A stretch of DNA of 64,000 bases. It comes from Pelagicoccus sp. SDUM812005. Its GTDB lineage: Bacteria > Verrucomicrobiota > Verrucomicrobiia > Opitutales > Opitutaceae. The stretch covers positions 113,656 through 177,655 of the forward strand of contig NZ_JARXIA010000014.1 in the NCBI RefSeq assembly GCF_031127875.1, read 5' to 3'. Numbering within the stretch: the first letter of the stretch is position 1; each line of letters begins with the position of its first letter. The translations under genes were made by a program, and so were the position numbers. The notes under the pieces are model-generated. The model was not told the origin of the DNA. It searched no databases and was given only the letters and a program-made list of their open reading frames with translations. This document shows, piece by piece, positions 1-13,669 of the stretch.

Positions 1-1
1 A

Positions 2-952
2 GGTGGGACTGGGGCTATGGTGACGAGCTCCGGGAATGCGGCCACCTTGTGCGCGGTGACGATCGCGATGGCGGGAAGAAAGGGGAGTTTGGTGACGCAT
101 CCGGACATCTATGGCGGAAGCCACGAGTTGTTGGGGATCTTGTCGGATACGTTTGGCTTGCAGGTGAATGTTGTAAATCCGAGCGACGAGGCGGCATGGT
201 TGAAAGCGGTTTGGCAAGCGGGAGCTGTTTTGCTGGAGACTCCATCGAATCCGCTGATGCGATTGATCGACTTGCGGTCGACGGTGGAGGCGGCGCATGG
301 GAACGGGGCGCAGGTGATTGTGGACAACACGGTGGCGACCCCCTTTAACCAGCGGCCGTTTTCGTTTGGAGCGGATTGGGTCGTGCAGTCGACGACCAAG
401 TACTTGAACGGGCACTCGAACGTGGTGGGCGGTTGCTTGGTCAAGCGAGAGAAGCTACTGGCGGAAGACCGTCGCGTGCACAAGAACTTGGGAGGCACGG
501 TGAACGCTATGGAAGCTTGGCTGGTATTGCGCGGGCTGAGAACGTTCGCTCTGCGCATGGAGGCGCATAACCGCAATGGTGAGGCCATCGCCGATTGGCT
601 GAGTCGCCACTCCGCCGTATCCAAAGTTTATTACCCAGGTAGGGGCGAAGGGCGCCAAGAAGAGATTTTCGCCCAGCAGATGAGCGGCGGCAGCGGTTTC
701 CTCGCGTTCGAACTTGCGGGCGGAGGCGAGGCTGCGGAGCAGTTTCTGAACCGCATGCGCCTGGTAACGCATGCGGTGAGTTTGGGCGGTATGGAAAGTT
801 TGGCTACACGGCCTGCTATGTCGAGTCACCGCGGCATGAGCCCTGAGGCGCGGCGAGAAGCGGGAATCGCCGACGGCCTGATTCGCCTTTCGGTAGGTAC
901 GGAGGGGCTGGACGATTTGATCGCGGACCTGCGTCAGGCGCTGGAGCAATAG
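2..952 (+). CDS. Cystathionine gamma-synthase-like PLP enzyme (5' end outside window)
   Basis: The reading frame is open to the left edge, so the gene starts upstream; about 317 residues are present against about 390 for the family, so roughly 75 N-terminal residues are missing. This is a Cys/Met-metabolism PLP enzyme (fold type I) of transsulfuration or O-acyl-homoserine sulfhydrylation. The Schiff-base lysine sits in the STTKYLNGH motif (K128 counted from the first ATG at 17), and the pyridine-nitrogen aspartate in VDNTVATP. The C-terminal SLGGMESLATRPAMSSH segment is typical of the family. Cysteine synthase follows 9 bp downstream, so the two probably form an operon for cysteine/methionine interconversion. 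Cystathionine gamma-synthase, gamma-lyase and O-acetylhomoserine sulfhydrylase cannot be separated here. Confidence 0.9.
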   Translation, partial: GGTGAMVTSSGNAATLCAVTIAMAGRKGSLVTHPDIYGGSHELLGILSDTFGLQVNVVNPSDEAAWLKAVWQAGAVLLETPSNPLMRLIDLRSTVEAAHGNGAQVIVDNTVATPFNQRPFSFGADWVVQSTTKYLNGHSNVVGGCLVKREKLLAEDRRVHKNLGGTVNAMEAWLVLRGLRTFALRMEAHNRNGEAIADWLSRHSAVSKVYYPGRGEGRQEEIFAQQMSGGSGFLAFELAGGGEAAEQFLNRMRLVTHAVSLGGMESLATRPAMSSHRGMSPEARREAGIADGLIRLSVGTEGLDDLIADLRQALEQ

Positions 953-961
953 AATTTTGTT

Positions 962-1915
962 ATGAAGATATACAAGGACATTACGGAAACAATTGGAAAC
1001 ACGCCGTTGGTTCGCTTGAACCGGACTGCCGAGAAGTATGGAGCGCAGGCGGAAATCGTCTTGAAGCTGGAGTCGTTCAATCCGCTCTCGAGCGTGAAGG
1101 ATAGAATCGGCGCGGCGATGATCGATGCGGGGATGCGCGAGGGAAAAATCAATGTGGATACGACGCTTATCGAGGCGACGAGCGGCAACACGGGTATCGC
1201 TCTGGCTTTCGTGGCGGCGGCGAAGGGCTTGAAGCTGATCTTGACCATGCCGGACACGATGACGGTTGAACGCCGGAAGATCTTGAAGGTGCTGGGAGCC
1301 AAGCTGGTCTTGACGCCGGGCGCCAAAGGAATGAAGGGGGCGATCGCAGAAGCGGAGCGGATCGCCGCCACGATCCCGAATAGCTTTATCGTCAGCCAGT
1401 TCGCCAATCCCGCCAATCCGCAGATTCATAAGGAAACGACGGCTCAGGAGATCTGGCGGGATACGGAAGGGATGGTAGATGTCATCGTATCGGGAGTCGG
1501 CACGGGCGGGACGATAACTGGAATTTCGGAGGCGTTGAAGCCATTGAAGCCGGACTTGAGAATCGTAGCGGTGGAGCCGGACGGATCGCCGGTGCTGTCG
1601 GGCGGAGAGCCGGGGCCGCACAAGCTGCAAGGTCTAGGGGCGGGGTTCGTGCCAGCTGTTTTGAATACGAAGGCCTACGATGAAGTGGTGCGGGTCAAGG
1701 AGGCGGAATCGGCTCCTGTCAGTCGCGACGTAAATTGCCTCGACGGCATTCCGGTGGGCATCTCTTCGGGCGCAGCCATCTGGGCAGCGATAGAGTTGTC
1801 TAAGCGACCTGAATACAGGGGAAAGCGAATTGTGACGATTGTGCCGTCCAGCAGCGAGCGTTACCTGAGCTCGTGGCTGTTCGAGGACATCGATATCGAA
1901 GGGGATGAGCTCTAG
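962..1915 (+). CDS. cysK: Cysteine synthase A (O-acetylserine sulfhydrylase)
   Basis: A 317-residue fold-type II PLP enzyme that makes cysteine from O-acetylserine and sulfide in the cytoplasm. The PLP lysine is in PLSSVKDRIG (K46), the substrate-binding loop is TSGNTG (about residues 73-78), and the phosphate-binding glycine loop is GVGTGGT (about 180). The length matches CysK (about 310) rather than cystathionine beta-synthase with CBS domains. The C-terminal PSSSERYLSS stretch is also typical of CysK. It follows the gamma-synthase-like gene by 9 bp and is probably cotranscribed. The assimilatory sulfite reductase at 19881-21602 would supply its sulfide. Confidence 0.93.
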   Translation: MKIYKDITETIGNTPLVRLNRTAEKYGAQAEIVLKLESFNPLSSVKDRIGAAMIDAGMREGKINVDTTLIEATSGNTGIALAFVAAAKGLKLILTMPDTMTVERRKILKVLGAKLVLTPGAKGMKGAIAEAERIAATIPNSFIVSQFANPANPQIHKETTAQEIWRDTEGMVDVIVSGVGTGGTITGISEALKPLKPDLRIVAVEPDGSPVLSGGEPGPHKLQGLGAGFVPAVLNTKAYDEVVRVKEAESAPVSRDVNCLDGIPVGISSGAAIWAAIELSKRPEYRGKRIVTIVPSSSERYLSSWLFEDIDIEGDEL

Positions 1916-2053
1916 CGTGTACCTTTCAATGCGCGCGGACAGTTGCGCTAAGGGTGCACCTGCAGAAGAGAAGCGCGTGTCTGACTCAAGAACGGCGAAA
2001 ATTTAAAGAGTATGAAGTAGTTTAGTGGGCTAGAGCGTTAAGAGGGAGGTAGA

Positions 2054-2419
2054 ATGAAATACAGGAGATGGAATTATGGGGAGGACTCGCTGAGCGGACG
2101 AATCGCGCAACGCGTCGAGGAGCTGGAGGTTTTGTTGACGCGTGAGTCTTGGCTTCCGTTTAGCTTGCGAGGTTTGTTGGCGACAGAGTTGCCTCAGATC
2201 TTGAAAACGGTGAGGTCTGGCAGGGCGGTCTGGCGTAAGCGTGTTTCGAAGCAGCTGTTAGTATTGTCATTGGCGAGCTGGGTCTATGGACCCAGCGCTT
2301 TGGAATCGAAGACGATCTCGGGGATACAAGCGCTCGAGTTGGAGGTGAACGGTTTCATTTCCCAGGAGCGCAAGCACGAACGCAATGGCAAGGACGAACT
2401 GGAGGAAGGCGACGAGTAG
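2054..2419 (+). CDS. Hypothetical protein
   Basis: A 121-residue ORF that I do not recognise. Start choice is supported by a strong Shine-Dalgarno GGGAGGT about 6 bases before the ATG. The protein is charged and probably helical, with an arginine-rich middle (RKRVSK), one short hydrophobic stretch (LLVLSLASWVYG) and an acidic tail (ELEEGDE). No signal peptide or catalytic motif is seen. It stands alone between cysK and an opposing small gene. Confidence 0.5.
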   Translation: MKYRRWNYGEDSLSGRIAQRVEELEVLLTRESWLPFSLRGLLATELPQILKTVRSGRAVWRKRVSKQLLVLSLASWVYGPSALESKTISGIQALELEVNGFISQERKHERNGKDELEEGDE

Positions 2420-2619
2420 CCGGCTGGTTTTGAGTGTTTGAATCGCAGCGGGTACATTGTCCGCCGCTCGCGGCGTCGCTAACTTCTGCGATTCGTCGAG
2501 CTTCGAAGCCCGTAGGGTCAAATCGACGTGATGTCCCGTCGTGGTCTCCCGCGATCGACGGAGTCGACCCCTTGGGGCGGGGTGGCGATTTGAGAGCGAA
2601 GATATTCACTATTGGGAAA

Positions 2620-2645
2620 CGAGAGGGGCTAGGTAGCCCCTCTCG
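2620..2645 (-). terminator. Perfect hairpin, likely terminator of the 2653-2862 gene
   Basis: Perfect inverted repeat with 11-bp arms (CGAGAGGGGCT and its complement) around a 4-base loop. It begins 7 bases after the stop codon of the minus-strand ORF 2653-2862. On the minus strand it is followed by a short T stretch (TTTCCC), so termination may be weak. Its placement supports that small ORF being real. Confidence 0.6.
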
Positions 2646-2652
2646 TGGTTTA

Positions 2653-2862
2653 TCAGGAAGCTACTTTTGTTCTCTTGGCCCGTTCCTGCTCTCTCCTGCC
2701 GAGCTCTTCTGCGAGCGTGGAGCGAGCTTGCGAGGTGAGTTGCTTGGGATCGAGTTGCTGTAGCTGGATCGTGGGAAGACTGGCGTAGTGGGTTTTTAAG
2801 GACGCCGCGTCATTGGCCACTTCGTAGAAGGAAGCGAATCGCTTCCACCATCGTTTAATCAT
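2653..2862 (-). CDS. Small hypothetical protein (69 aa)
   Basis: A 69-residue ORF with an ATG start, an aromatic/basic N-terminus (MIKRWWKRFASFYEV) and a charged helical C-terminus. I do not recognise the family. Support comes from the perfect hairpin just after the stop codon; no clear Shine-Dalgarno precedes the ATG. The N-terminus looks amphipathic and could touch the membrane, which is inference only. Confidence 0.45.
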   Translation of the reverse strand: MIKRWWKRFASFYEVANDAASLKTHYASLPTIQLQQLDPKQLTSQARSTLAEELGRREQERAKRTKVAS

Positions 2863-3052
2863 AGTAAATTGAATACGTTTTGTGCGTTATCCGACACCCT
2901 AACCCTGCTCGAGCGGATGTCGCTGTATAGTGTTTTACAGCTGCTCCACCTTGCTCGCAGGAGTTTTCTCCTTCGAAACAGAAGGTCCGGGGGAGCGGCG
3001 CACTTGTAGTGCACTCTCGTGGGAACTTATAGGCTGACTCGCAGCTGTGAAA

Positions 3053-3412
3053 TTAGCGAGAAGTCGTGCTTCGCCGGGGAGGAGAGCGACAGTCGTAGGA
3101 CGCTCGCCATTCGCGTCCTGTCGTCCCAGTCCGTTCTTCCAGTAAGTCGCAGATTGGGAAATCGGGGGCGAGCCATGCCAGGTAGTCATCAGGGAGGTAC
3201 GCAAGTTTCGCTGGGGGTGTTTCCTCTTTTTGGAGAGGCCGCAGCGGCGAAGCCCTGTCGACGATGCCTTCAATGGAAGCGAGTTGGCTGTGGTTTGTGG
3301 CGATGGCCGCTTGTTTGCTGTCCGCTGGCACCGACGCGGCAACAAAGCCTTCACCGCCGGGAGATGCGGTGACAATAAAAAGTGCGACGAATAGATGCCA
3401 GATCGTTTTCAA
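3053..3412 (-). CDS. Possible exported hypothetical protein, perhaps frameshifted
   Basis: A 119-residue ORF from a TTG codon with a plausible Sec signal (MKTIWHLFVALFIVTAS) and then a polar mature part. The C-terminal third becomes Arg/Ser-rich and low in character. The overlapping minus-strand frame at 2935-3375 continues with more ordinary composition, so one frameshift near 3120 could join the two (stop at 2935). An opposing ORF (3264-3659) also begins with a signal-like stretch, so which strand is coding is unresolved. Confidence is low. Confidence 0.3.
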   Translation of the reverse strand: MKTIWHLFVALFIVTASPGGEGFVAASVPADSKQAAIATNHSQLASIEGIVDRASPLRPLQKEETPPAKLAYLPDDYLAWLAPDFPICDLLEERTGTTGREWRASYDCRSPPRRSTTSR

Positions 3413-3666
3413 GCGTCAAAGTGCTACAAGATACTGTGCAATGACGCTTGCGGGGCAGTTGTCAACTGCAGCGTACGCGCGCTTTTTGTCGTCTTCGGCT
3501 GGGAGGGAAACTTGGGGACCACGCCTTGAACTTAGAAAGAGCAGTAGCCCGCGGCGACCTGACGCAACCTACTGGGCTGAGGGGCGTTTGAGCGCCGACT
3601 CGAAGCAACATTCTGGCGCACCTTCGCGGGCTCAAAAGCCCCTTCGCTCCAGCATCTAGCACCACC

Positions 3667-4917
3667 TCATCCACACTCGACCGCTCTTTCTAGGTTGAAG
3701 CGAGCTTGTGTGAGGAGAGCGGCGATGGATAGCCCCGTCAGGGCAGCGGCTGCGGTCAGGATTTCAGGGGTGTGAGGCAGGTGAGGCCATTGGGTAAGAG
3801 TGGCTGCGGGGACATAGAACAAAACTGCCTCTCCGATTGCGAAACTGAGTAGGTAAAGGGCCGAAGCAGTGACCGTGGTCTTTGAATTGCGTATCCAGTT
3901 ATTGGAGATTCCCCATGCAATTAGGGCAGGGGTGACGACGCCTAGGAATACTAGGTGCAAGAAACCGATGGCTGCGGAACGGTGGCTGGCGAGGACGTCG
4001 AGACCGGGTAGACTGCCTGCGAACTGGAAGACGAATTTTAGGATAAGGCAAGCGAGGGCGACACGAAGCAGCTGCCTCTGGAGGTAGGGCAGGCGAGCGA
4101 TAAACCCTGCATCTAAGTTTTGGATACGAGAGAATATGATGCCGCAGCCAATGAGCTGGAGAATTGATCCGAGGAGAGAGGCCAGATTCACCAAGTAGGA
4201 GAAATTAGCCCATATGGCGGCTTGGGCCAAGGAAAGCAGGCAACCAGCGGTCAAGAAAGGGTAGGCTGCGGCGAAGGCGGACTCGAGTTTCTTTGAGTGA
4301 GAGAGCGCGATGACGGATGCTAGGAGGAAGAAGACGAACCAGCCATTGTACTGGAAATGCATGTAGAAATAGATGGAGAGCGTGTACCAGGGGGAGTCGC
4401 GGAGCTCGAGTGCTCCTAAGGGACCGAGGGCGAGGGGACCCACGCTCGAAATTGCCATGAATACGAGGGCGGTTCGCAGGTACTGCCTTCCGAGGGGTGG
4501 CAGTGCATTTTTTCGAAAGAGCTTCCATGCGAAGGCAAAGGTCGTGGTCATGTGGAGCGTGGAGAAGGAGATGCTCCAGAAGGCGTAGCCTTGGAAAGGG
4601 AAGGACGCGAGCATGCCTAGGTTGGCGATTTGCAGGAGATAGAAGACCTTGCGGAAGGCGGGGAGTTGGTCCTCGGTCGCGAAGTGTTGGATGCTGACGG
4701 CAAGGAGGGCATTGAAGACCCAAGCCAAGAATGCGGCGTGCGAGTGGGCGTGGAGGAAGTGGCGGTAGTTTACGGCGGCTATGGGTTCCAAGGCTTGGAG
4801 CCGAAGGAAGATTCCGAGCAGAGCGGCGATGAGGAAGAATGAAAGACCAGTGATGAAGACGGCACGGGCGAGACGGTCACGATTGTGAGGTCGAGATGAA
4901 GGCGTATCTATTGGCAT
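3667..4917 (-). CDS. Heme-copper oxidase subunit I-like membrane protein
   Basis: I chose the ATG at 4917 (MPIDTPSS...), because the open frame upstream to 5025 has no membrane-protein character. The product is about 416 residues with about 12 hydrophobic helices. Histidine-bearing helices resemble a divergent heme-copper oxidase/NnrS-like fold: FLHAHSHAAFLAW near residue 50, FYMHFQYNGWF near the middle and GFLHLVFLGVV in the last third. The HH pair and the HxH pair of true oxidases are not clearly both present, so metal binding may be partial. No partner subunits are adjacent. It may be a NO- or heme-related membrane protein; function is unknown. Confidence 0.75.
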   Translation of the reverse strand: MPIDTPSSRPHNRDRLARAVFITGLSFFLIAALLGIFLRLQALEPIAAVNYRHFLHAHSHAAFLAWVFNALLAVSIQHFATEDQLPAFRKVFYLLQIANLGMLASFPFQGYAFWSISFSTLHMTTTFAFAWKLFRKNALPPLGRQYLRTALVFMAISSVGPLALGPLGALELRDSPWYTLSIYFYMHFQYNGWFVFFLLASVIALSHSKKLESAFAAAYPFLTAGCLLSLAQAAIWANFSYLVNLASLLGSILQLIGCGIIFSRIQNLDAGFIARLPYLQRQLLRVALACLILKFVFQFAGSLPGLDVLASHRSAAIGFLHLVFLGVVTPALIAWGISNNWIRNSKTTVTASALYLLSFAIGEAVLFYVPAATLTQWPHLPHTPEILTAAAALTGLSIAALLTQARFNLERAVECG

Positions 4918-5126
4918 GGCTGTTATCGTGAATATATTCGTCCTAACTCTACGTTGTTCTCTCGAATCCCTGGAGTTTGTCCTTGGGACAAAGGTTTCAG
5001 CCGTAGTCGAAAAGACGAGATTCAAATATACCAGAGCTGAATGAAGTTAAATTCGCTGGTCGTCCGCCATACTCTGGAATTCCAATTGTTCAAATCTTTC
5101 TGTTCCGATAAACGCGGTGTACTTGT

Positions 5127-5987
5127 CTAGCGGTTTCTTAGATCAGGCGCGTTGAAAATGCGATCGAAGTTCGCGTCTATCCGATTTCGACTGATGAATT
5201 TCCGGAAACCCTTTATGGTAAATATGTGGAGGTGGCTTATTGTGTATTCGGTATGTCCATACGTCAGTCCTGTGTCGCATTCTATCGTATGGTCCACGAA
5301 ATATTCGCATGAATCGACCTGTTTGGGAGGTTCCGCCAGATTTCCATTGCTGTCATAGTCTGCGACCCACAAGTCCCCTTCGTTCAGGATCAGCAATGGC
5401 ATAACAAAGGTGTAAACCGGCATATCGTTTCTGCCTTGGAAATCTCTCCATGCCGTAGCCACCAAATCAATGCAGGAAGCCAGCGCTTGGTTCCACTTCA
5501 GGAATACTTCCTCGTCGTTGCTCACGAATTCGTCTTCCTTTCCTCTCGACTGCTTGATCCCAACGCGAGCCATCCCCTTGCCAACCATCTCCCATCTTCG
5601 GTAGGGCGATGTTCCATCTTCCCTGTAGATGGTTTTCTGCTCGATGCTGGTAATTTTCCCTTTTGCGGTTTTTAGATAACAAGCGAGCCTTTCGTGCGGT
5701 TCCCGTGGAAGCCTAGATACCAGTAATGGGTATTCCGAGCCAAGAGTCTTGCACTCGATTGCAAGCTTCAGCGCACAATCTCCGATGTATGGTCCAATGC
5801 TGACGCGCAGGTCGAATTGGCGCCTTTTTCCCGATTGTTGATCGAGATAGCTCCCCCCGTGTACCGCTTCAAGTTGGTATTCCTTGCACGCTTTCAATGC
5901 GGCCATTTCAAGAGCGAACCCTTCTTCCTGTGAAAGGTATCGCTCAAGGTCGGATGCCTCGATTTTCTTGTTCGCTTGTCTCGCCAT
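5127..5987 (-). CDS. PD-(D/E)XK nuclease-like protein, last gene of WYL-controlled cassette
   Basis: A 286-residue protein of no family I can name. It carries a restriction-endonuclease-like core: RRQFDLRV with D59, then a hydrophobic beta strand ending LAIECKTLG with E78-x-K80, and a preceding helix with E24/E27. This D...ExK arrangement is the PD-(D/E)XK signature. The rest of the chain is rich in aromatic and charged residues with no membrane segment. It starts 7 bases after the stop of the preceding gene and is the promoter-distal gene of the 7809-to-5127 operon. By analogy with defence islands it may be the DNA-cleaving effector; that role is inference from the motif and the context. Confidence 0.7.
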   Translation of the reverse strand: MARQANKKIEASDLERYLSQEEGFALEMAALKACKEYQLEAVHGGSYLDQQSGKRRQFDLRVSIGPYIGDCALKLAIECKTLGSEYPLLVSRLPREPHERLACYLKTAKGKITSIEQKTIYREDGTSPYRRWEMVGKGMARVGIKQSRGKEDEFVSNDEEVFLKWNQALASCIDLVATAWRDFQGRNDMPVYTFVMPLLILNEGDLWVADYDSNGNLAEPPKQVDSCEYFVDHTIECDTGLTYGHTEYTISHLHIFTIKGFRKFISRNRIDANFDRIFNAPDLRNR

Positions 5988-5994
5988 GTTGTCG

Positions 5995-6303
5995 CTAGGC
6001 TTGGCTCGAGATTGGCTCCCCGGCTATGATCGTATGGGAATAGGTTCCGTGATCGGCTTCGCCAAATCGTTCTAGGTGGCATGATCTGACATCGAACACG
6101 CGGCGGCAAAAGAAGCCTGGGGTTGAAGGTTTCGATTCTTTCCGAAGCTTGGCCCAAGCGACGAGCTTACCATCGCCTTGAAATGCTTTCTTCAAGCCTC
6201 CTTGTCTCGTACCGCCGATCGCTTCGCCTACCTTGATTAGTTTGTACTTCGATAGGTCGTCGATGAACTCGATGGCTTCCTCTTGGCTTATATCGGCGGC
6301 CAC
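5995..6303 (-). CDS. Hypothetical protein, cassette gene 6 (GTG start)
   Basis: A 102-residue unknown protein starting at GTG. A strong Shine-Dalgarno (GAAGGAGG) lies inside the end of the upstream 47-codon ORF, whose stop is one base before this GTG, so the pair is translationally coupled. The N-terminus is acidic and helical (SQEEAIEFIDDLSKYKL), and the middle has a glycine-rich turn (IGGTRQGGLKK). The C-terminal half has two cysteines (FFCRR, RSCHLE). The length fits a small accessory or antitoxin-like subunit; no function can be assigned. Confidence 0.6.
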   Translation of the reverse strand: MAADISQEEAIEFIDDLSKYKLIKVGEAIGGTRQGGLKKAFQGDGKLVAWAKLRKESKPSTPGFFCRRVFDVRSCHLERFGEADHGTYSHTIIAGEPISSQA

Positions 6304-6304
6304 T

Positions 6305-6448
6305 TTAGGCCCCCTCCTTCTTCTTTGGTGGCTTTATCGTCGGCATCTTTACTCCGGTCGTTGTGGGACGAAGAGACGCTCCTCGTGAATTGCTCAATGG
6401 AGAATAGATCTTCTTTGGCTGTTCCCGTGAATATTTGTCTTTGTTCAT
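6305..6448 (-). CDS. 47-residue basic Pro/Lys-rich small protein, cassette gene 5
   Basis: A short ATG-to-TAA ORF of 47 codons lying exactly between the stop of the two-helix membrane protein (6 bases upstream) and the GTG of the next gene (1 base downstream). Its 3' end carries that gene's Shine-Dalgarno. The product is strongly basic and ends in PTIKPPKKKEGA. Spacing and strand fit a real cassette gene, though a leader-like role in coupling translation is also possible. No homologous family is recalled. Confidence 0.5.
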   Translation of the reverse strand: MNKDKYSREQPKKIYSPLSNSRGASLRPTTTGVKMPTIKPPKKKEGA

Positions 6449-6454
6449 AATTGG

Positions 6455-6946
6455 CTATTTTCGAAGGAAGTATTCTTTTGCGATTAGAGTGGAATTTTTG
6501 AGGAGCTTGTCGTTGTGCGGTATAGTCAATTCTCCGATGTGCCGCTTCCACAATGCCCCAATCCTTCTTTTGAATTCGATCGTTTTTGCGTGGATTTCTC
6601 GTACGGTCAGGTCTCCTTCCGATATGCAGTACCACTCGTCCTCCATATCGATGAACAGTTCGTCAAATGCGTATGATAGGTTTCTGAGCGGCTTGATGCG
6701 TTTGCTGAACGGCAGATAGCTTTTAGCTGCATTGAGCACTTGCGAAAGCGCGATAAGGAATCCCCACAGAAACGAGAATTCTGCCCAAATGGCCCAGCCT
6801 CCGATGCAGACGCTTGAGGTAATCGCGAGATAAATTTCGATCCTGTTGTTCCATCGCTCGGAGCGAATTAGGTAGCCATGCACATAGTGGCAGTGAGCTT
6901 TGAACTCATTCATCGAGTCCCAGTACTCGTTCGCAATCTTGCTCAT
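6455..6946 (-). CDS. Two-helix membrane protein, SLATT-like, cassette gene 4
   Basis: I chose the ATG at 6946; a TTG two codons earlier is also possible. The 163-residue product has an amphipathic N-terminal helix, a hydrophobic hairpin of two membrane helices (EIYLAITSSVCIGGWAIW and FLWGFLIALSQVLNAAKSYL, about residues 36-75), then a long charged helical C-terminus. This architecture, a helical hairpin followed by a cytosolic coiled region, resembles SLATT-domain proteins, which are predicted pore-forming effectors in nucleotide-signalling defence systems. The SLATT assignment rests on architecture, not on a search. No nucleotide cyclase is encoded nearby. It is a candidate membrane effector of the cassette. 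Confidence 0.65.
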   Translation of the reverse strand: MSKIANEYWDSMNEFKAHCHYVHGYLIRSERWNNRIEIYLAITSSVCIGGWAIWAEFSFLWGFLIALSQVLNAAKSYLPFSKRIKPLRNLSYAFDELFIDMEDEWYCISEGDLTVREIHAKTIEFKRRIGALWKRHIGELTIPHNDKLLKNSTLIAKEYFLRK

Positions 6947-6968
6947 CCGCAATCAGAGCTAGAGCTCT

Positions 6969-7343
6969 TCAATTGTCGTCTTCTAGCCCCAGCATATCGG
7001 CTATCCATTCATCCTTGCGGTCGACTGGACGGTAGAATCCGTATCGTTTGGCGACGCCGTCGTAAAACTCGTCGATCAGTTCGTTTAGCCTGAATTCCGG
7101 GATCTCTATTAGCCGCCACTGGTAGCTTCCTACATTCGGGAGTTCCATATCCTTTTTCCAGTTGGAGTATGACAGATGATCATTGGGCTCGCCGTCTCTC
7201 ACAGAGAAACCATAGGCTTTTCCGTATTTCCCATTGGGCTCAATTTTCGTGATCACGATCAGATCATGATCGCTCCAGTTCCGCCGGGAAGCTGCGAAAG
7301 GGAGAGTTTGGATATCCGCGTAGATCTGGAAAACGTTCCTCAT
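6969..7343 (-). CDS. Hypothetical protein, cassette gene 3
   Basis: A 124-residue soluble unknown protein, ATG start. It is acidic, aromatic and lacks membrane segments and cysteines; it ends DMLGLEDDN. The N-terminal half looks like alternating beta strands (DLIVITKIEP, KAYGFSVRD) and the C-terminal half like helices (FRLNELIDEFYDGVAKRYG). It lies 31 bases after the Cys/His-rich gene and 22 bases before the membrane-protein gene, so it belongs to the same transcript. I recognise no family. Confidence 0.65.
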   Translation of the reverse strand: MRNVFQIYADIQTLPFAASRRNWSDHDLIVITKIEPNGKYGKAYGFSVRDGEPNDHLSYSNWKKDMELPNVGSYQWRLIEIPEFRLNELIDEFYDGVAKRYGFYRPVDRKDEWIADMLGLEDDN

Positions 7344-7374
7344 TATGGGCTATAGCAGATTGTTTGTAAATCGT

Positions 7375-7593
7375 TCAGCTTGTGTGACATGCTCTGCAGC
7401 ACCAGAAGCACCCGTTGATCCTCTCGTTAGGCCACTGTCGCTTCGCATGTAGCACGGCTCCGTGGCAACTCGCGTGGTAGCCAAGGTCCACCTGATTCTG
7501 TGGGAGCGGCATGTACTGGCACCCTGAAGTCGCATTGTGCACCTCGTAGTCGCCATTGTCTTGCTGGTTTTTGTTTATGATGAATTGTGGCAT
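7375..7593 (-). CDS. Small Cys/His-rich protein of a widespread uncharacterised family, cassette gene 2
   Basis: A 72-residue protein of the pattern MPxFxINKNxQxNGDxEVHN...C...LP...LGxxxxCxxAV...AK...NGCxxCCxxCHTS, which I recall as a widely distributed small family of unknown function in accessory regions. Visible conserved features are NGDYEVHN near residue 13, a Cys-Leu/Met-Pro stretch near 26, and the C-terminal NGCFWCCRACHTS, which could form a zinc site with upstream C/H residues. It starts 36 bases after the first cassette gene. The family memory is firm; its role is unknown. Confidence 0.8.
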   Translation of the reverse strand: MPQFIINKNQQDNGDYEVHNATSGCQYMPLPQNQVDLGYHASCHGAVLHAKRQWPNERINGCFWCCRACHTS

Positions 7594-7629
7594 TCTCGAT
7601 TCTTGTAGTTGATTGTTCTAAAATTAAAA

Positions 7630-7809
7630 TTATCTCTTCTTCTCTCTTCGAACCCCCTTGAATGGAGCTTTTGAGGAGGTCTTGACGTCTATAAAGCGTC
7701 CCGTGTCCGCGTCGCGTTTGGCCCAGTGGCCAGAGGAAGTTTTGGTTTGCGAGCGGCTTCTAACCGCTCCTTTTCTGTGTCCGTCGCCGATAGGTGGGTT
7801 AGTTGCCAT
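7630..7809 (-). CDS. 59-residue basic small protein of a widespread uncharacterised family, cassette gene 1
   Basis: ATG (7809) to TAA (7630). The sequence pattern MATNPPIGDGHRKGAVR...QT...W.KRD..TGRFIDVK....FKGVR matches a widely distributed small basic family that I recall from many accessory regions, always short and of unknown function. Conserved-looking pieces are GDGHRKGAV, KRDADTGRF and PFKGVRREKKR. It is the promoter-proximal gene of the operon; no Shine-Dalgarno is visible. High Arg/Lys content suggests nucleic acid binding, which is inference. Confidence 0.8.
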   Translation of the reverse strand: MATNPPIGDGHRKGAVRSRSQTKTSSGHWAKRDADTGRFIDVKTSSKAPFKGVRREKKR

Positions 7810-7823
7810 GTTCTTGTATGTAT

Positions 7824-7851
7824 TTGACTGCTTAAGTTAAGGACCTAATAC
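7824..7851 (+). promoter_or_regulatory. Likely promoter of the WYL regulator gene
   Basis: TTGACT (7824-7829) and TAATAC (7846-7851) with a 16-bp spacer, reading toward the regulator gene at 7928. The -10 lies inside the first palindrome (7843-7863), so a bound regulator would block it: classical autoregulation. Confidence 0.5.
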
Positions 7852-7863
7852 TTAGTGTTAGGT
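7843..7863. promoter_or_regulatory. Operator-like 21-bp palindrome 1
   Basis: Imperfect palindrome whose arms begin ACCTAA and end TTAGGT; the inner bases also pair except at one symmetric position. Its total length and its ACCT...AGGT ends are the same as in the second palindrome 37 bp away. It covers the -10 of the regulator promoter. BrxR/CapW-type WYL proteins are known to bind inverted repeats of this kind as dimers. Confidence 0.6.
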
Positions 7864-7874
7864 TAGTATGATTC

Positions 7875-7903
7875 TTAAAACCTCATAAAAAGTATGAGGT
7901 CAA
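7875..7903 (-). promoter_or_regulatory. Likely promoter of the seven-gene cassette
   Basis: On the minus strand TTGACC (7903-7898) and TTTTAA (7880-7875) are separated by 17 bp. The spacer is filled by the second palindrome, the arrangement expected for strong repression. The first gene starts at 7809. Confidence 0.45.
7880..7900. promoter_or_regulatory. Operator-like 21-bp palindrome 2
   Basis: Perfect 8-bp arms ACCTCATA / TATGAGGT around AAAAG. It occupies the -35/-10 spacer of the cassette promoter. Together with palindrome 1 it would allow one WYL dimer per divergent promoter. Confidence 0.65.
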
Positions 7904-7927
7904 CCTGTTTATTTTTATTTCTTCAGC

Positions 7928-8803
7928 ATGGATCACGATATTCCCCATACTCAGCTCCTTCGATTGAACTTCATTGAGTTTCGCCTGCTATTCGCTGGCG
8001 AAGTTGGCCGTGGCGACCTGATGCGACGATTTGGAATAAAGGAGGCGGCCGCGACCAAGGACTTCACGGCGTATAGGGGCTTCTTTCCGAGGAACATCGA
8101 ATTCGACCAAAGCCAAAAGGTGTACCGTCCAACGAAGGAGTTTTCGCCGTCGTTGATTTCCGGTCGCCCTCAAAAGACCCTTTTAAGGGCATTGGTTCAT
8201 GGGACGGGGGACGATTTTTCAGAGAGTGTCGATCCACTGGTGCCTTGCGAGTTGCCCGTTCGGCTGTATGAAACGCGGTTGGACACATTAGCCGCTGTCT
8301 CGAGGTGTATATATTCGGGCGGGGTGCTTCGAATTCGCTACCTCTCAGGTAGCGGATCCACCAAGAAAAGGGATATCGTTCCTTTCTCCTTCGCGGGCAA
8401 CGGCCTCCGTTGGCACGTGCGCGCATATGATCGTTTGAAAGGAAGGTTTGGTGATTTCGTGATCAATCGTATCGTCGCTGCAGAAAGTCTTGATGAAACC
8501 GCGAAAGCCTCGGAGAGAAGAGAAAACGATGAACAGTGGAATCGGATGGTTCGTCTTGAGATTGTTCCGCATCCGAAAACGAAGAACGCCAGAATGCTTG
8601 AGATAGAATTTGGAATGGAAAACGGACTGTTGGAGTGCAGGGTGAGGGCTGCTCTTGTCGGCTATGTTTTAAGGCTTTGGAATGTCGATTGCACCGCTGA
8701 TGCAAGTTTGAAGGGTAGGGAATATGCGCTGTGGCTCAGAAATCGAGCGACTCTCTACGATGCTGAAAACGCGGAGATCGCTCCCGGTTACGTTCAAGAT
8801 TGA
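7928..8803 (+). CDS. WYL-domain transcriptional regulator, BrxR/CapW type
   Basis: A 291-residue protein. An N-terminal winged helix (LNFIEFRLLFAGEVGRGDLMRRFGI) is followed by the ligand-sensing WYL domain in the middle (GVLRIRYLSG..., WHVRAYDRLKGRFGDFVINRI) and a C-terminal WCX-like dimerisation region. This three-part layout and the N-terminal motif are typical of BrxR and CapW, which repress BREX, CBASS and other phage-defence operons until a signal is sensed. It is divergent from the cassette at 5127-7809, and both promoters carry matching palindromes, so it very likely controls both. No other regulator is in the island. Confidence 0.88.
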   Translation: MDHDIPHTQLLRLNFIEFRLLFAGEVGRGDLMRRFGIKEAAATKDFTAYRGFFPRNIEFDQSQKVYRPTKEFSPSLISGRPQKTLLRALVHGTGDDFSESVDPLVPCELPVRLYETRLDTLAAVSRCIYSGGVLRIRYLSGSGSTKKRDIVPFSFAGNGLRWHVRAYDRLKGRFGDFVINRIVAAESLDETAKASERRENDEQWNRMVRLEIVPHPKTKNARMLEIEFGMENGLLECRVRAALVGYVLRLWNVDCTADASLKGREYALWLRNRATLYDAENAEIAPGYVQD

Positions 8804-8992
8804 AATTTTGACTGGCACCTATCTTGGCAGCTGCGCGTTTTCCATCGCCTAGCGCGACGACGCCAATGGCTCTCTGTTCGTACGCTCGAGGGAAAGTGCC
8901 GAATTTACAGTGGGAAATGCAGAACTTAAACAGGAAGTGTCGGCTGTCACTTTGGGTCGCGTGGCTGCAAGCTAATGGAGTCAATTAGTAGC

Positions 8993-9157
8993 TCTAGAAA
9001 AAGTAGAAAGATCGTTGCCTGTCGGTGATTCGTGGATACGGAGACCGAATTCGGGCAACACGGCGAAGATGTGGGATTGGATGTCCTCGTATTTGATCCA
9101 CTTGGTGGTGGCAGTGAAGGCGTAGTCTTGCTGGGGAAGCCCGTCGCTCGAGGGTTA
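8993..9157 (-). pseudogene. Partial copy of the 3' end of the MscS-type channel gene
   Basis: This stretch matches 16350-16521 (coding for about the last 60 residues of the channel at 16330-17607) over almost its whole length, with scattered substitutions. It has one clean 12-base deletion between two GAAGATGT repeats. No start, upstream coding part or intact C-terminus is present. It is an old partial duplication lying between the WYL island and the TlpA fusion gene. The stretch 8804-8992 holds nothing I can assign. Confidence 0.8.
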
Positions 9158-9183
9158 GCCTGGAATTACCCCCAAACTCTACC

Positions 9184-12081
9184 TTAAAAAGTAGAGAGCT
9201 TTTGGAGTTCGGCGAGGGCTCGGTCGTGGCCGATTTTGGCGCTGTCGATGAGTACGGTGCCGTGGCGATCGGTGACGACGAGTTGGGGAATCGTGTCGCC
9301 GAAGAGCGACTCGAACGCGGGGAGCTGGCCGCGGTTGGTGAAGGTGAGCATGGGCCATTCGATGCCGAGCGAGCTGGTGTAGCGTTTGGCTTCGGCGGAG
9401 GATTTGTCGCCGGAGACGTATACGATGGTGACCATGTCGGGTGCGAGCTTGGCTTGCTTTAAGGTGGAGACGAGTTTTGGGGCGAAGACTTTGCAGGGCG
9501 GGCACCATCCGGCGCCCATGTAGAGGATGACGTACTGGGGCTGGGTTTGGGGGAGCTCGACGCGGCGGCCGGTGGCGGGATCGACGAGCTTGCCGGCAAG
9601 TTCTTCGAGGAGGCGTCCGGGGGCGCTGTCGGGCTTGGCTAGGCGGTCTCGAGCTTGTTGGAGCAGGTCGGTGTTTTCCGCTTCGAAATTGAAGGCGATA
9701 TCCGAATTCGGGATACGCAGGAGGAGCTGGTTGCGGTCGTACTTGAGGAAGAGAACCTCGTCGCCTGCCTTGAGACTGGGAGCTCCGGAGAACTCGACGG
9801 GCACGGCCAGCTTGAGGCGGTAGGGCCAGAGCTCGGAACGGTTGGCGAGGTCGCGGTAGCTGAGGTCGCGTTGCTCGGGCGTAAGCGTTGCCCAGGCGGC
9901 GTTGGCTGCGTCTAGGGTGGTGGTGGCCTCGGGTTCGACGGCGAAGGTGACGCGGCCGCGGTTGGCGCTGGCGACGACTTCGCGTGTCTTGAGTTCGACG
10001 ATTTCGATTTCGCTGCCGGAGCGGACGACGGCCCCGTCGGAGAAGCGAAGTTCCTTTTGGATAATGGCGGTTTGGGGCCAGGCTTCGCGTTTGCGGACGA
10101 GTTCGGACCAGCTGAGCGGCGCGACGGCGACCGTTGGAGCGGCGATGGGTTGGGCGACGGCTTGTATTGGCTGGACCCTTACAGCGGCCGAGCTGATTTG
10201 AGTGGGCGCGGGTGCGATGTCCGAAGCGTTGGAGGCGAGTGGGAGATCGGTCGCTTGCAAGGCGTCCGCCAAGGTGTAGGAAGGGCTGGGCTCTATCGTG
10301 TGGCGAACGAAGCCTTCGGCGTTGGCGGCGATGAGCCGGAGCTCGCCGTCGTCGCCCATGTGGGTGGCTCCGGCGTACCTAACGATGTTGTTGTTGGGGA
10401 CGGTTTGCAGGTCGAAGGCAGCGACGCGTTGGCCGTTTATGTAGAGCACGGTGTTGCGTCCGGGGCGGTCGGTGGCTCGTTCGTCGTTGAAGAAGAGGAA
10501 GTGCTTGCTGTCCGGGGTAAAGTAGGCCCGTGAGCGGATGCCGAGCTCTTGGCTCCAGATCGACTTGCCGTCGACGTGGACGTGGTAGGTCTTGTCCTTG
10601 CGGGTGACGTAGGCGACCCGCTTGCTGTCGGGCGAAAAGATGGCGGAGGTGCGATTGGCTTCGGCGAATCCGTTGGCGAGGAAAGGCATGGCTACATGGT
10701 CGCCGATGTCGTCGCACTTGCCGTCGATGTAGTGGGCGCCGGTCTTGATCCCGCCGATAGCGAAGGCGCTGCGTTTGCCGTCCGGGCTGAAGACGATGCT
10801 TTCGTCGACGACGGTCGAGACGGTGTTGGCGTTGCCGATGCGCCAAGTCGGGTCGGACAGTACTTGGGAATCGAATACGGCGACGGAGCCGTTGCTGGTG
10901 GTGGTAGCTCCGTAGGCGAAGCGGTTGCCTTGGGGGGCGAGGACGATGGGATTGGTGTACTTGTATCCGTCGGATTCCTCGCCGTTGACGAGCGGGTAGT
11001 TGAGACCGCCTTGGAAGGCGATGGAGACGCATAGGGAGGAGTCGGCGGTGAAGGCGGCGTAGGCGCGGCCTTCGGAGGCGGGCAGGACGTTTTGGAAGGA
11101 GCTGTAGCTTGGGCCGCGCTTGCCGTCGAGCCATTGCCACATGGCGATGCCTTGCGGCTCGCGGCCGTGAACGACAATGCGTTTTCCGTCGGGGCTGAAG
11201 AGGAAGCTGTCGGCTCCTTCGGTGTTGAGGAGCGTCTTGCCGTCAACCCAAGCGGATCCTTCGGCGATGCCGCCGATCCGGCCGTTGGAGGAGACGATAG
11301 GGAGGCGCAGGTTGGGATGGAGGACCTTGCCGTCGACTAGGGTGGCCGCCCCGCTGGTGGCGACGAGCTTGCCGTTGGGCAGGAACTGGACGGGGGTGCC
11401 TTCGTAGCCGGCGAGCTTGCCGTTGAGGATCATTTCACCTCGGGTGGGATCGGCGGCGTAGCGGGTTTCGTCGGCGCTGAAGACGATGCCGTTGCGCAGG
11501 TAGTTGGTCGCGAGTCGGATAGGAATGGGTTTGCCGTCGATGAAAAGGCAGTCGCCGGGGCGTTCGCCGGGAAGGTCGTGCTTGGCGATGAACCAGTAGC
11601 GTTTCCCTTGGGGCGAGAAGCGGACGATGCTCTTGTTGTTTTCCTCGATGGCGCCGGTTTGGTAGGGAGCCCGGTGGACTTCCTTGCCGTCTACCATTAC
11701 GACGTACTCAGACCCTTGCAGTCCGACGTAGGCGTAGCGTTTGCCGCCGGCGCTGAAGATGACCGGGTGATCGTACCGGTCTTGGCTGACAATGGCTGGA
11801 AACTGGGAGCGGCCGAGGGTGGGGCTTCCATCGGCGGCGAGTAAGCGGTCGAACCGTGGGCCGACTTCTCCGTCGACGGAAACGGCGAAGCGGCTACCTT
11901 GGCGGAGGACTGCCGAAAAGCGGCCGCTGATGTCAATTTGGACGGAGAAGGCGTCGAGCGGAGCCAGGACTGTGGTTTCGATTTTCGGTTCGGAGAAGGA
12001 TGGGGTCGCGATAGCGAAAAGGAGCGTGAGAACTCCGAGTTTTTTGCTGAGGGAGCAAAGGTAGCATGTGTATGGATTCAT
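9184..12081 (-). CDS. Exported beta-propeller protein with C-terminal TlpA-like thioredoxin domain
   Basis: I chose the ATG at 12081, which gives a signal peptide (KKLGVLTLLFAIATPSFS) directly; the frame runs upstream to 12129. The product has about 965 residues. The N-terminal about 600 residues repeat FSPDGKR-type and VDGK motifs, a WD40/PD40-like beta-propeller. A linker with SH3-like KAGDEVLFLKYD follows. The last about 120 residues are a thioredoxin fold with the redox motif GAGWCPPCKVFAPKL. The protein should act outside the cytoplasmic membrane, but its redox partner is unknown. Fusion of a long propeller to TlpA is unusual. The gene appears monocistronic. Confidence 0.85.
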   Translation of the reverse strand: MNPYTCYLCSLSKKLGVLTLLFAIATPSFSEPKIETTVLAPLDAFSVQIDISGRFSAVLRQGSRFAVSVDGEVGPRFDRLLAADGSPTLGRSQFPAIVSQDRYDHPVIFSAGGKRYAYVGLQGSEYVVMVDGKEVHRAPYQTGAIEENNKSIVRFSPQGKRYWFIAKHDLPGERPGDCLFIDGKPIPIRLATNYLRNGIVFSADETRYAADPTRGEMILNGKLAGYEGTPVQFLPNGKLVATSGAATLVDGKVLHPNLRLPIVSSNGRIGGIAEGSAWVDGKTLLNTEGADSFLFSPDGKRIVVHGREPQGIAMWQWLDGKRGPSYSSFQNVLPASEGRAYAAFTADSSLCVSIAFQGGLNYPLVNGEESDGYKYTNPIVLAPQGNRFAYGATTTSNGSVAVFDSQVLSDPTWRIGNANTVSTVVDESIVFSPDGKRSAFAIGGIKTGAHYIDGKCDDIGDHVAMPFLANGFAEANRTSAIFSPDSKRVAYVTRKDKTYHVHVDGKSIWSQELGIRSRAYFTPDSKHFLFFNDERATDRPGRNTVLYINGQRVAAFDLQTVPNNNIVRYAGATHMGDDGELRLIAANAEGFVRHTIEPSPSYTLADALQATDLPLASNASDIAPAPTQISSAAVRVQPIQAVAQPIAAPTVAVAPLSWSELVRKREAWPQTAIIQKELRFSDGAVVRSGSEIEIVELKTREVVASANRGRVTFAVEPEATTTLDAANAAWATLTPEQRDLSYRDLANRSELWPYRLKLAVPVEFSGAPSLKAGDEVLFLKYDRNQLLLRIPNSDIAFNFEAENTDLLQQARDRLAKPDSAPGRLLEELAGKLVDPATGRRVELPQTQPQYVILYMGAGWCPPCKVFAPKLVSTLKQAKLAPDMVTIVYVSGDKSSAEAKRYTSSLGIEWPMLTFTNRGQLPAFESLFGDTIPQLVVTDRHGTVLIDSAKIGHDRALAELQKLSTF

Positions 12082-12677
12082 CACTTTGAGCGGATAGGTG
12101 GGAAAGCGTGCGGATCCCTTACTTGGCATGCGGCGACCCCCTCGCTTTTTTCTGACGAGTTTTTGACGACTCGGAAAATTGGATATTCAAAAGAATTTCC
12201 GAGAGCGAGCGGATTTTTTTTGGCGGTGCGAGTGTGTTTCTCCGGGTAAAATTCGTTCAGCAGGGAATTGGTTTTGCTTGCGGCGATTTCCGACTATCGA
12301 CTCTGCGAAGCGTTCTTTGACCTTTGCACGGCAGCCGTGCCGCCTCGGTGCGTTGTGCGTTCTCCATCGTTTCGAAGTTGCTGAGCTCTTCCACTCAGGC
12401 GCTATTTGCGCGCCGTTTTGTTAGGTCGGGCTGGATGGTGATTTGGCAAGATTTGCCGAGACCGCGCTGTCTGATGCCTCTAGTTTCATAGGCTGTTAAT
12501 TTCCCCGGAAAGTGTCGGCTATTCTTAACAATTTATCTTTTCTTCGGAATCACGGATACCGGATTTTCTCTGTGGCTGGGGTGATCTACTTAATTGTGGC
12601 GCGGTGGTTGCTGTTACGTCTCGCTGGCTCGCAGCCGAGTCATATTCTCAAAGCAACCCCTATTGTAAAAACGACAG
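12082..12677. other. Intergenic region, no gene seen
   Basis: About 600 bases between the divergent propeller/TlpA gene and the VPDSG-CTERM gene. It must hold both promoters. The only structure I see is a 7-bp-arm palindrome (GCACGGC-A-GCCGTGC) near 12326-12340 and a small GC hairpin near 12399. Short ORFs here have no convincing features. Confidence 0.4.
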
Positions 12678-13364
12678 ATGCACATCAAATCGATCCTAAC
12701 CTCTACCGCATTGCTGATTTCATCCATTTTCTCTACAGCAGCTCATGCTGTAACCTACAAGGGCATTGAGTTTCCTGCGGGAGATATTTCCTTTGCGGAT
12801 TCCCTAGTGTCCTACACTCCCTCTTTTGGAGGCGGTAACGTGCCGACGGACACAAATTACACGGATCCTTCGAAAGCTCTAGGCGCTCCTGATTACCAAT
12901 CACCCAATGGTTCTGTGTCGCTAGGCGATGGGGGACGGATCATTCTCGAGTTTGTGGACAATTTCCTGACGGGTAGTAGCCTTACGGGTGTTGCCGACGG
13001 AATCTTCGATTTGCATATCTTCGAAATCGGTGGTGCCGTAGAGGCCACCGACGTTCACATCAGTAAGGATGGTTCCGTTTGGGAGTCGGTGGGTCGAGTG
13101 AATGGGAGTGTTAGCAGCATTGACATCGACCTTTTCGGCTTTTCGGTGAGTGACCAGTTTCGTTTTGTGCAACTGACAGACGTAAAGGGATTGAATGGCA
13201 CAACAGGGAGCACAGTAGGGGCGGACATCGATGCAGTGGGAGCGATCAGCACGGTCATCAACCCAAATCCCGGAACTTCTCCCGTCCCTGACTCGGGGAG
13301 TTCTTTCCTCGCATTTCTGATTTCTTTAGCTGGCATCGTAGCCTTCACGAAGCGGAAGCGTTAG
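12678..13364 (+). CDS. VPDSG-CTERM sorted exported protein with discoidin-like domain
   Basis: A 228-residue protein with a Sec signal peptide (SILTSTALLISSIFSTAAHA) and a C-terminal sorting tail: VPDSG near residue 203, a hydrophobic helix SSFLAFLISLAGIVAF and a basic end TKRKR. VPDSG-CTERM tails are known from Verrucomicrobiota and mark proteins processed by exosortase-like enzymes for surface display or extracellular matrix. The middle (SKALGAPDYQSPNGSVSLGDGGRIILEF) resembles an F5/8-type or jelly-roll fold. A rho-independent terminator follows the stop. This is the best lineage marker in the window. Confidence 0.88.
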   Translation: MHIKSILTSTALLISSIFSTAAHAVTYKGIEFPAGDISFADSLVSYTPSFGGGNVPTDTNYTDPSKALGAPDYQSPNGSVSLGDGGRIILEFVDNFLTGSSLTGVADGIFDLHIFEIGGAVEATDVHISKDGSVWESVGRVNGSVSSIDIDLFGFSVSDQFRFVQLTDVKGLNGTTGSTVGADIDAVGAISTVINPNPGTSPVPDSGSSFLAFLISLAGIVAFTKRKR

Positions 13365-13384
13365 GTTTTCACTCTATTACTGCT

Positions 13385-13418
13385 AAGCGAGCCCTTCGAC
13401 AGAGGAGTTCGCTTTTTT
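13385..13418 (+). terminator. Rho-independent terminator of the VPDSG-CTERM gene
   Basis: AAGCGA...TCGCTT stem with an extendable GCC/CCT-rich upper part, followed by a run of six T, 20 bases after the stop codon. Confidence 0.75.
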
Positions 13419-13669
13419 GTGTAATAGTCCCTTCATGCTCGGTTTGTCGAGTTGGCGGGACGATTGAAGGGTCGTCCGAAGAACCCATGACAAAAGAAAT
13501 GTTGGACTGACTCTGTTTCCCATCGTTTTTTTACTGCGTGGCGAGGTGCTTTGGAGTTCGCAGCCGCGCTGTACGGACAACAGCATCATTCATGGAGCTC
13601 TCCGCCGATTCGAACCGGGAATGGGCTAGGCTCTTGGCCCCCAGAATCACTTTTTGCTCTACCAACTGC

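Follow-up and report, generated by a model that had tools for sequence, protein, structure and literature searches.

Does a compact set of seven genes that stands back to back with a WYL-domain regulator gene constitute an anti-phage system, and if so, how would it act? The question is raised by positions 5127-8803 of a 64,000-nucleotide stretch of the genome of Pelagicoccus sp. SDUM812005 (contig NZ_JARXIA010000014.1; the whole stretch is termed the window below). Seven open reading frames (ORFs) occupy the minus strand between 7809 and 5127, separated from one another by 1-36 bases in the ORF listing, and the regulator ORF occupies 7928-8803 of the plus strand, 118 bases from the first of them. 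These coordinates confirm the packed arrangement opposite a WYL gene described in an earlier reading made from the DNA letters alone (the sequence-only reading). Genes 1 to 7 are numbered outward from the regulator. With moderate confidence, we predict that this operon, likely repressed by a BrxR/CapW-type regulator at two operator-like repeats, is an anti-phage system that probably acts through DNA cutting by a PD-(D/E)XK protein and perhaps through membrane damage. The prediction is carried by sequence evidence for the family of the regulator, for twin repeats unique to the gap between the divergent genes, for the packed layout, for a nuclease motif, and for a first gene of the PADLOC PDC-S38 family, as in other loci faced by a WYL gene; the defense role that these features suggest for the operon is plausible.

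The 291-amino acid (aa) regulator has a Pfam WYL match (E = 1.3e-7), and its likeness to known regulators extends over its full length, beyond the WYL domain. Residues 5-290 of 291 align with residues 10-294 of PDB chain 7qfz_A at E = 7e-69, an entry titled as BrxR, a WYL-domain containing transcriptional regulator, and further matches were obtained with CapW (7tb6, E = 4.8e-28) and BrxR (7t8k, E = 2.7e-22). The gene lies upstream of and divergent from the operon, an arrangement expected of this family, and no second match to the regulator was found in the same genome at E ≤ 0.001. On this sequence evidence the regulator belongs to the BrxR/CapW family, which upholds the assignment of the sequence-only reading on the strength of the full-length 7qfz alignment. 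BrxR and CapW are reported to bind inverted repeats or palindromes and to act as repressors (PMC9122601, PMC9122588). CapW is described as a repressor of the cyclic oligonucleotide-based anti-phage signaling system (CBASS), with CapW-controlled CBASS being induced upon infection (PMC9122588), and 48% of BrxR homologues are stated to sit with known defense systems (PMC9122601).

Two operator-like inverted repeats lie in the 118-base gap. The first (7843-7863), ACCTAATA[CTTAG]TGTTAGGT, pairs at 7 of 8 arm positions, and the second (7880-7900), ACCTCATA[AAAAG]TATGAGGT, has perfect 8-base arms. Both have a 5-base spacer, equal to that reported for BrxR operators of E. fergusonii and Acinetobacter, the inverted repeats of which measure 11 and 10 bases (PMC9122601, PMC9122589); the operator role of the repeats in the window is predicted from their sequence. 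When the gap was shuffled 2000 times, the best repeat was equalled in 77 shuffles and the best together with the second-best in only 9. A pattern common to both repeats, which was derived from these very sites, has 2 occurrences in the window where 0.01 would be expected, and a slightly stricter pattern is found nowhere in the 6.65-Mb genome except at the two sites (a third row in the genome search represents the second site on the opposite strand). The locus thus resembles BrxR/CapW-controlled operons in its full-length regulator relative, in its divergent orientation and in the 5-base-spacer inverted repeats of the shared promoter gap. It differs in its cargo, in which no bacteriophage exclusion (BREX) gene and no CBASS cyclase was recognized. 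Searches of the eight proteins with Pfam, PADLOC and NCBIfam gave no match to a BREX core gene (e.g., PglZ, BrxC) and none to a cGAS/DncV-like nucleotidyltransferase (CD-NTase) or other nucleotidyltransferase, in agreement with what had been claimed, and the products of genes 2-7 matched no PADLOC model at E ≤ 1.

Gene 1 (7630-7809, minus strand), which encodes a basic protein of 59 aa, was recognized as an already named defense candidate, a point absent from the sequence-only reading: it matches the PADLOC PDC-S38 model PDLC05010 over positions 1-57 of 57 at E = 2.6e-29. The S in this name denotes a single-gene candidate, and no paper in the literature searched names PDC-S38; in the window, this gene instead opens an operon that stands opposite a WYL gene. 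Relatives of gene 1 occur in 70 plasmid records and in 19 of the 288 genomes of a phylum sample (7 with E under 1e-26, the other 12 weaker). Thirteen of the 70 plasmid records, picked for variety, were inspected, and in six of these a gene for a WYL protein with 25-45% identity to that of the window stands directly opposite gene 1: Burkholderia (L027), Serratia (L028), Methylomonas (L029), Alteromonas (L074), Citrobacter (L077) and Yersinia (L079). The cargo behind these heads varies. In the Burkholderia locus it consists of nucleotidyltransferase, ThiF and Mov34 genes, and a SAVED gene lies close by; the Serratia and Alteromonas loci hold PD-(D/E)XK proteins (PDDEXK_11), and the Yersinia locus holds a protein with nucleotidyltransferase matches under the cut-off; no clear defense cargo was seen at the Methylomonas and Citrobacter loci. 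At three plasmid loci lacking the WYL gene, gene 1 stands beside a CBASS-type set (L026), a type I restriction set (L076), or TIR, SIR2 and retron-type genes (L078).

A chromosomal locus in another genome of the phylum sample (G178, L037:6374-11376) resembles the window in layout. A WYL gene faces relatives of gene 2 and then gene 1, followed about 520 bases on by a DUF2779 protein, whose PDDEXK_1 match is only borderline, and then by a protein that matches SLATT_5 (E = 2.1e-50) as well as PADLOC RTasSLATT (E = 7.7e-39). It shares with the window the WYL gene opposite genes 1 and 2 and the succession of a nuclease-type protein and a protein with two transmembrane segments (2TM). It differs in that genes 1 and 2 are swapped, the nuclease-type protein is of the DUF2779 family, the membrane protein clearly belongs to SLATT_5, and no relative of genes 3-7 lies in the 16-kb stretch. 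The locus is independent of the window and comparable to it in layout, and its likely effectors are different ones. The picture suggested by these loci is of a control head, composed of the WYL regulator and PDC-S38 and sometimes gene 2, that would carry exchangeable cargo, with genes 3-7 being one such set; the cargo would be local and the head shared because parts appear to be exchanged among operons of this kind. If this is right, a BrxR/CapW-type regulator and PDC-S38 would form a shared head with swapped cargo, the orphan PADLOC candidate would become testable, and new systems could be found behind WYL-PDC-S38 heads.

The most likely effector is encoded by gene 7 (5127-5987, minus strand, 286 aa), for which 127 proteins were retrieved at E ≤ 0.001, its own included. 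E27, D59, E78, K80 and Q167 are invariant in a 44-row alignment, and D59, E78 and K80 are the very residues singled out earlier as a PD-(D/E)XK-like motif. The canonical placement of E...D...ExK in PD-(D/E)XK enzymes is in the first helix and core strands; in the predicted structure (predicted local distance difference test, pLDDT, 90), E27 lies in a helix (23-36), D59 in a strand (55-64), and E78 and K80 in another strand (71-80). PD-(D/E)XK structures head the list of structural matches to this model, and the core fold is present in it. Motif, model and structural matches thus sustain the assignment of gene 7 as a PD-(D/E)XK-like protein and predicted nuclease, with the fold class and E...D...ExK motif also seen in the stand-alone defense nucleases Shedu SduA and McrC. 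Two relatives were observed in settings of their own. One, in a 39-kb phage contig (L067:6001-6891), looks like a prophage cargo gene, flanked by small regulatory genes and by what appear by eye to be lysis and terminase genes; another (L006:8929-9822) is followed by a DUF2971 protein matching PADLOC PDC-S31 (E = 4.8e-12).

A second effector might be the product of gene 4 (6455-6952, minus strand), which has 165 aa from a TTG start or 163 aa from an in-frame ATG. Two adjacent hydrophobic stretches, one from residue 38 (mean hydropathy 1.42) and one from residue 55 (1.56), are compatible with a 2TM protein. Proteins of the SLATT type, to which gene 4 had been likened, are described as predicted pore-forming effectors (PMC7159879). 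This likeness found weak support: the NCBIfam SLATT_4 model matches three of the six family members (best E = 0.0051). For gene 4 itself the match (E = 0.061, 13.2 bits) falls under the cut-off of 55, Pfam SLATT models match none of the six members, and hhalign comparison of the family with one SLATT_5 and one SLATT_4 protein gave scores (13.9 and 13.4) that lie under those of the best shuffles. Gene 4 is also rare, with four rows at E ≤ 0.001 of which the first is the protein of the window, and with two distant relatives on plasmids. Elsewhere in the same genome, a clear SLATT_4 protein (G000:C63:115638-116132, L086; E = 3.9e-70) is encoded next to an ORF that resembles a CD-NTase by eye, and this genome may therefore hold a CBASS-type set at another site.

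Under the anti-phage prediction, the seven ORFs would form one transcript that the WYL protein holds low in the resting cell. Infection or DNA damage would give rise to a signal that binds the WYL domain and releases the operon; gene 7 would then cut DNA, and the membrane may be the site of action of gene 4. A regulatory or adaptor role, which may fall to genes 1 and 2, is among the least certain steps of this scheme.

Several observations weigh against a defense role or against parts of this scheme. The operon holds no known defense gene, and the SLATT assignment of gene 4 is weak by sequence. The WYL gene is absent at 7 of the 13 plasmid gene 1 loci and at 7 of 9 chromosomal ones in the phylum sample, where it is present in the window and in G178. 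Four plasmid loci (L075, L080, L081 and L082) have no clear defense neighbor in the listed annotation, and one of them adjoins arsenic-resistance genes. When the seven other gaps between a WYL gene and gene 1 were searched for operator-like repeats, six gave no more than chance would; only the Yersinia gap has a comparable repeat, with 70 of 2000 shuffles as good. Furthermore, protection is reported not to need CapW-dependent induction (PMC9122588), and for this reason the WYL switch alone does not reveal the trigger of the operon. Finally, BLAST found no relatives of genes 1-6 or of the WYL gene at any of the 14 other gene 7 loci compared (L002, L006-L016, L066 and L067), among which L013 and L066 are short stretches of about 3-4 kb and L011 and L014 start within 500 bases of the gene.

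These separate occurrences led us to reject the proposal of a single conserved seven-gene cassette as it had been stated: gene 7 stands alone at all 14 loci, a gene 3 relative is found in a 20-kb stretch of genome G060 with no other cassette gene, and gene 1 appears with other cargo. The same occurrences favor the strongest rival, in which the locus is a mosaic whose small mobile genes have a promoter in common but form no single system, unrelated genes (gene 7 included) having been inserted behind the WYL and PDC-S38 head and acting alone. Genes 1 and 2 (59 and 72 aa) are conserved proteins found with many different partners, as such a mosaic would predict. On the other hand, all seven genes lie on a single strand with gaps of just 1-36 bases, and the layout recurs in G178 with other members. 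Moreover, relatives of gene 7 (P0003, 69% identity), gene 3 (P0121, 76%) and gene 4 (P0128, 74%) come from the same source, with a longest contig of 4600 bases given for each, so that one metagenome contig probably holds all three, and at least these three genes would therefore move or stay together. Apart from this probable contig, parts of the cassette were met separately. We consider the mosaic unlikely, if still a serious contender.

Less well supported is a stress or DNA-repair operon in which the WYL regulator senses damaged DNA and gene 7 is a repair nuclease. Hjc-type resolvases are indeed among the structural matches to gene 7, and WYL regulators of the PafBC and DriD types are reported to answer to single-stranded DNA (PMC11804915, PMC12340889). 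However, the regulator is far nearer to BrxR/CapW than to PafBC (E = 7e-69 vs. 0.011), the patchy distribution is unlike that of housekeeping repair, and PDC-S38 adjoins defense-type genes at several loci, all of which makes a repair role improbable. Very improbable, finally, is that the genes are maintenance or transfer cargo of a plasmid or integrative element left in the chromosome: the families of genes 1 and 2 are common on plasmids, DUF6009 genes (the family that gene 6 resembles) occur on Streptomyces plasmids and the G+C content is low (49.4% in 5127-8803 vs. 56.5% in the window), but no integrase, transposase or relaxase was noticed beside the operon in the ORF listing of positions 1-14000 (by eye, not by profile) and the window has no tRNA gene.

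The most surprising part of the locus, likewise absent from the sequence-only reading, is gene 3 (6969-7343, minus strand, 124 aa), whose product is likely related to the mitochondrial ribosome protein mS34. In its predicted structure (pLDDT 80.3), mS34 chains are the best structural matches and the mS34 fold is apparent. Sequence support alone is modest. Between the gene 3 family and the aligned core of mS34 there are 10 identities at invariant columns, a count selected after the alignment was viewed, which was equalled by 1 of 600 shuffles and by none of 136 controls (translations of ORFs that had been listed mechanically at other loci). The hhalign score of the family against human mS34 (19.2) was attained by 12 of the 600 shuffles and none of the 136 ORF products. 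The register of the structural superposition is shared by the real alignment and by 110 of the 600 shuffles, none of which attains the score; no more than about 2 should do so, however, and the band was fixed after the real alignment was seen. Profile searches did not recover the relationship. Pfam MRP-S34 (PF16053) matched none of the seven gene 3 family members at E up to 10, a range in which HMMER filters discard most matches above E = 0.1; run on the same genome, the model missed gene 3 at E up to 10, and its search of 327 genomes gave no match even in controls and is hence uninformative. A gene 3 profile likewise retrieved no mS34 chain from PDB sequences at E up to 10. Counting against the relationship, a human mS34 profile gave no sharper matches to distant mS34 chains once gene 3 rows had been added: two plant chains went from E = 0.02-0.03 to 1.1, chains 7pkq_z, 8a22_Bz and 7aor_t were lost, and a Tetrahymena chain was gained at 0.32 with nanobodies mixed in. 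In addition, MAFFT and hhalign paired the mS34 motif with different parts of gene 3.

Gene 3 has 6 relatives among about 5.8 billion proteins. Among 303 genomes of the order, only its own and one other carry it, and it is absent from the listed genome of the same genus; in viral contigs, 55 pattern matches yielded no relative. Two local matches to GlcNAc 2-epimerases were attributed to chance because both are PF07221 enzymes. In G060 (L021:7280-8332), the gene 3 relative comes after a protein of 174 aa that carries an R-N-x-x-A-H motif; this protein may be of the HEPN type and had no firm Pfam match. Whereas mS34 is counted among the supernumerary, mitochondria-specific ribosomal proteins (PMC11251090), gene 3 is bacterial, 124 aa long and undetected by the Pfam MRP-S34 model. 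Within the predicted defense operon, gene 3 may bind the ribosome or a structured RNA and couple the system to the state of translation, a step that also ranks among the least certain. As a more far-reaching possibility, which we regard as a long shot, gene 3 could be a true bacterial relative of mS34 that binds the small ribosomal subunit, and the operon a translation-monitoring defense system, controlled by a BrxR-type switch, in which gene 3 senses phage-disturbed ribosomes and triggers both the PD-(D/E)XK enzyme and the membrane protein. If true, mS34 would gain a bacterial family of its own, and an mS34-like gene 3 would raise the question of the origin of mS34.

The remaining genes, all on the minus strand, are small. 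Gene 2 (7375-7593, 72 aa) is rich in Cys and His (6 C, 5 H) and has relatives in 15 plasmid records (34-69% identity), in 13 phage records (H18-H30) from Streptococcus, Staphylococcus, Erysipelothrix and Vibrio phages, and in 6 of the 288 genomes. Gene 5 (6305-6448, 47 aa) is a putative basic ORF with no match among plasmids, the single database searched with it, and it is the least certain gene for that reason. Gene 6 (5995-6303, 102 aa, GTG start) is DUF6009-like, matching the Pfam model below its cut-off (E = 3.6e-5, 24.3 bits vs. 28.6); three Streptomyces plasmid records were retrieved with it at E = 0.009-0.1, two of them annotated as DUF6009.

With respect to setting, promoter and terminator scans gave chance-level results only. 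Of 14 related genomes, just 1 holds a relative of the flanking gene at 3667, so that synteny at the empty site could not be read. Among 604 sliding stretches of equal length, those of lower G+C than the cassette all overlap it. Sulfur amino acid genes lie beside the cassette at 17-1915 of the window, and positions 16000-64000 hold many respiratory or nitric-oxide-related genes, including cytochrome-type, NnrS-like, FNR-like and anaerobic ribonucleotide reductase genes; in both regions the putative names were assigned by eye.

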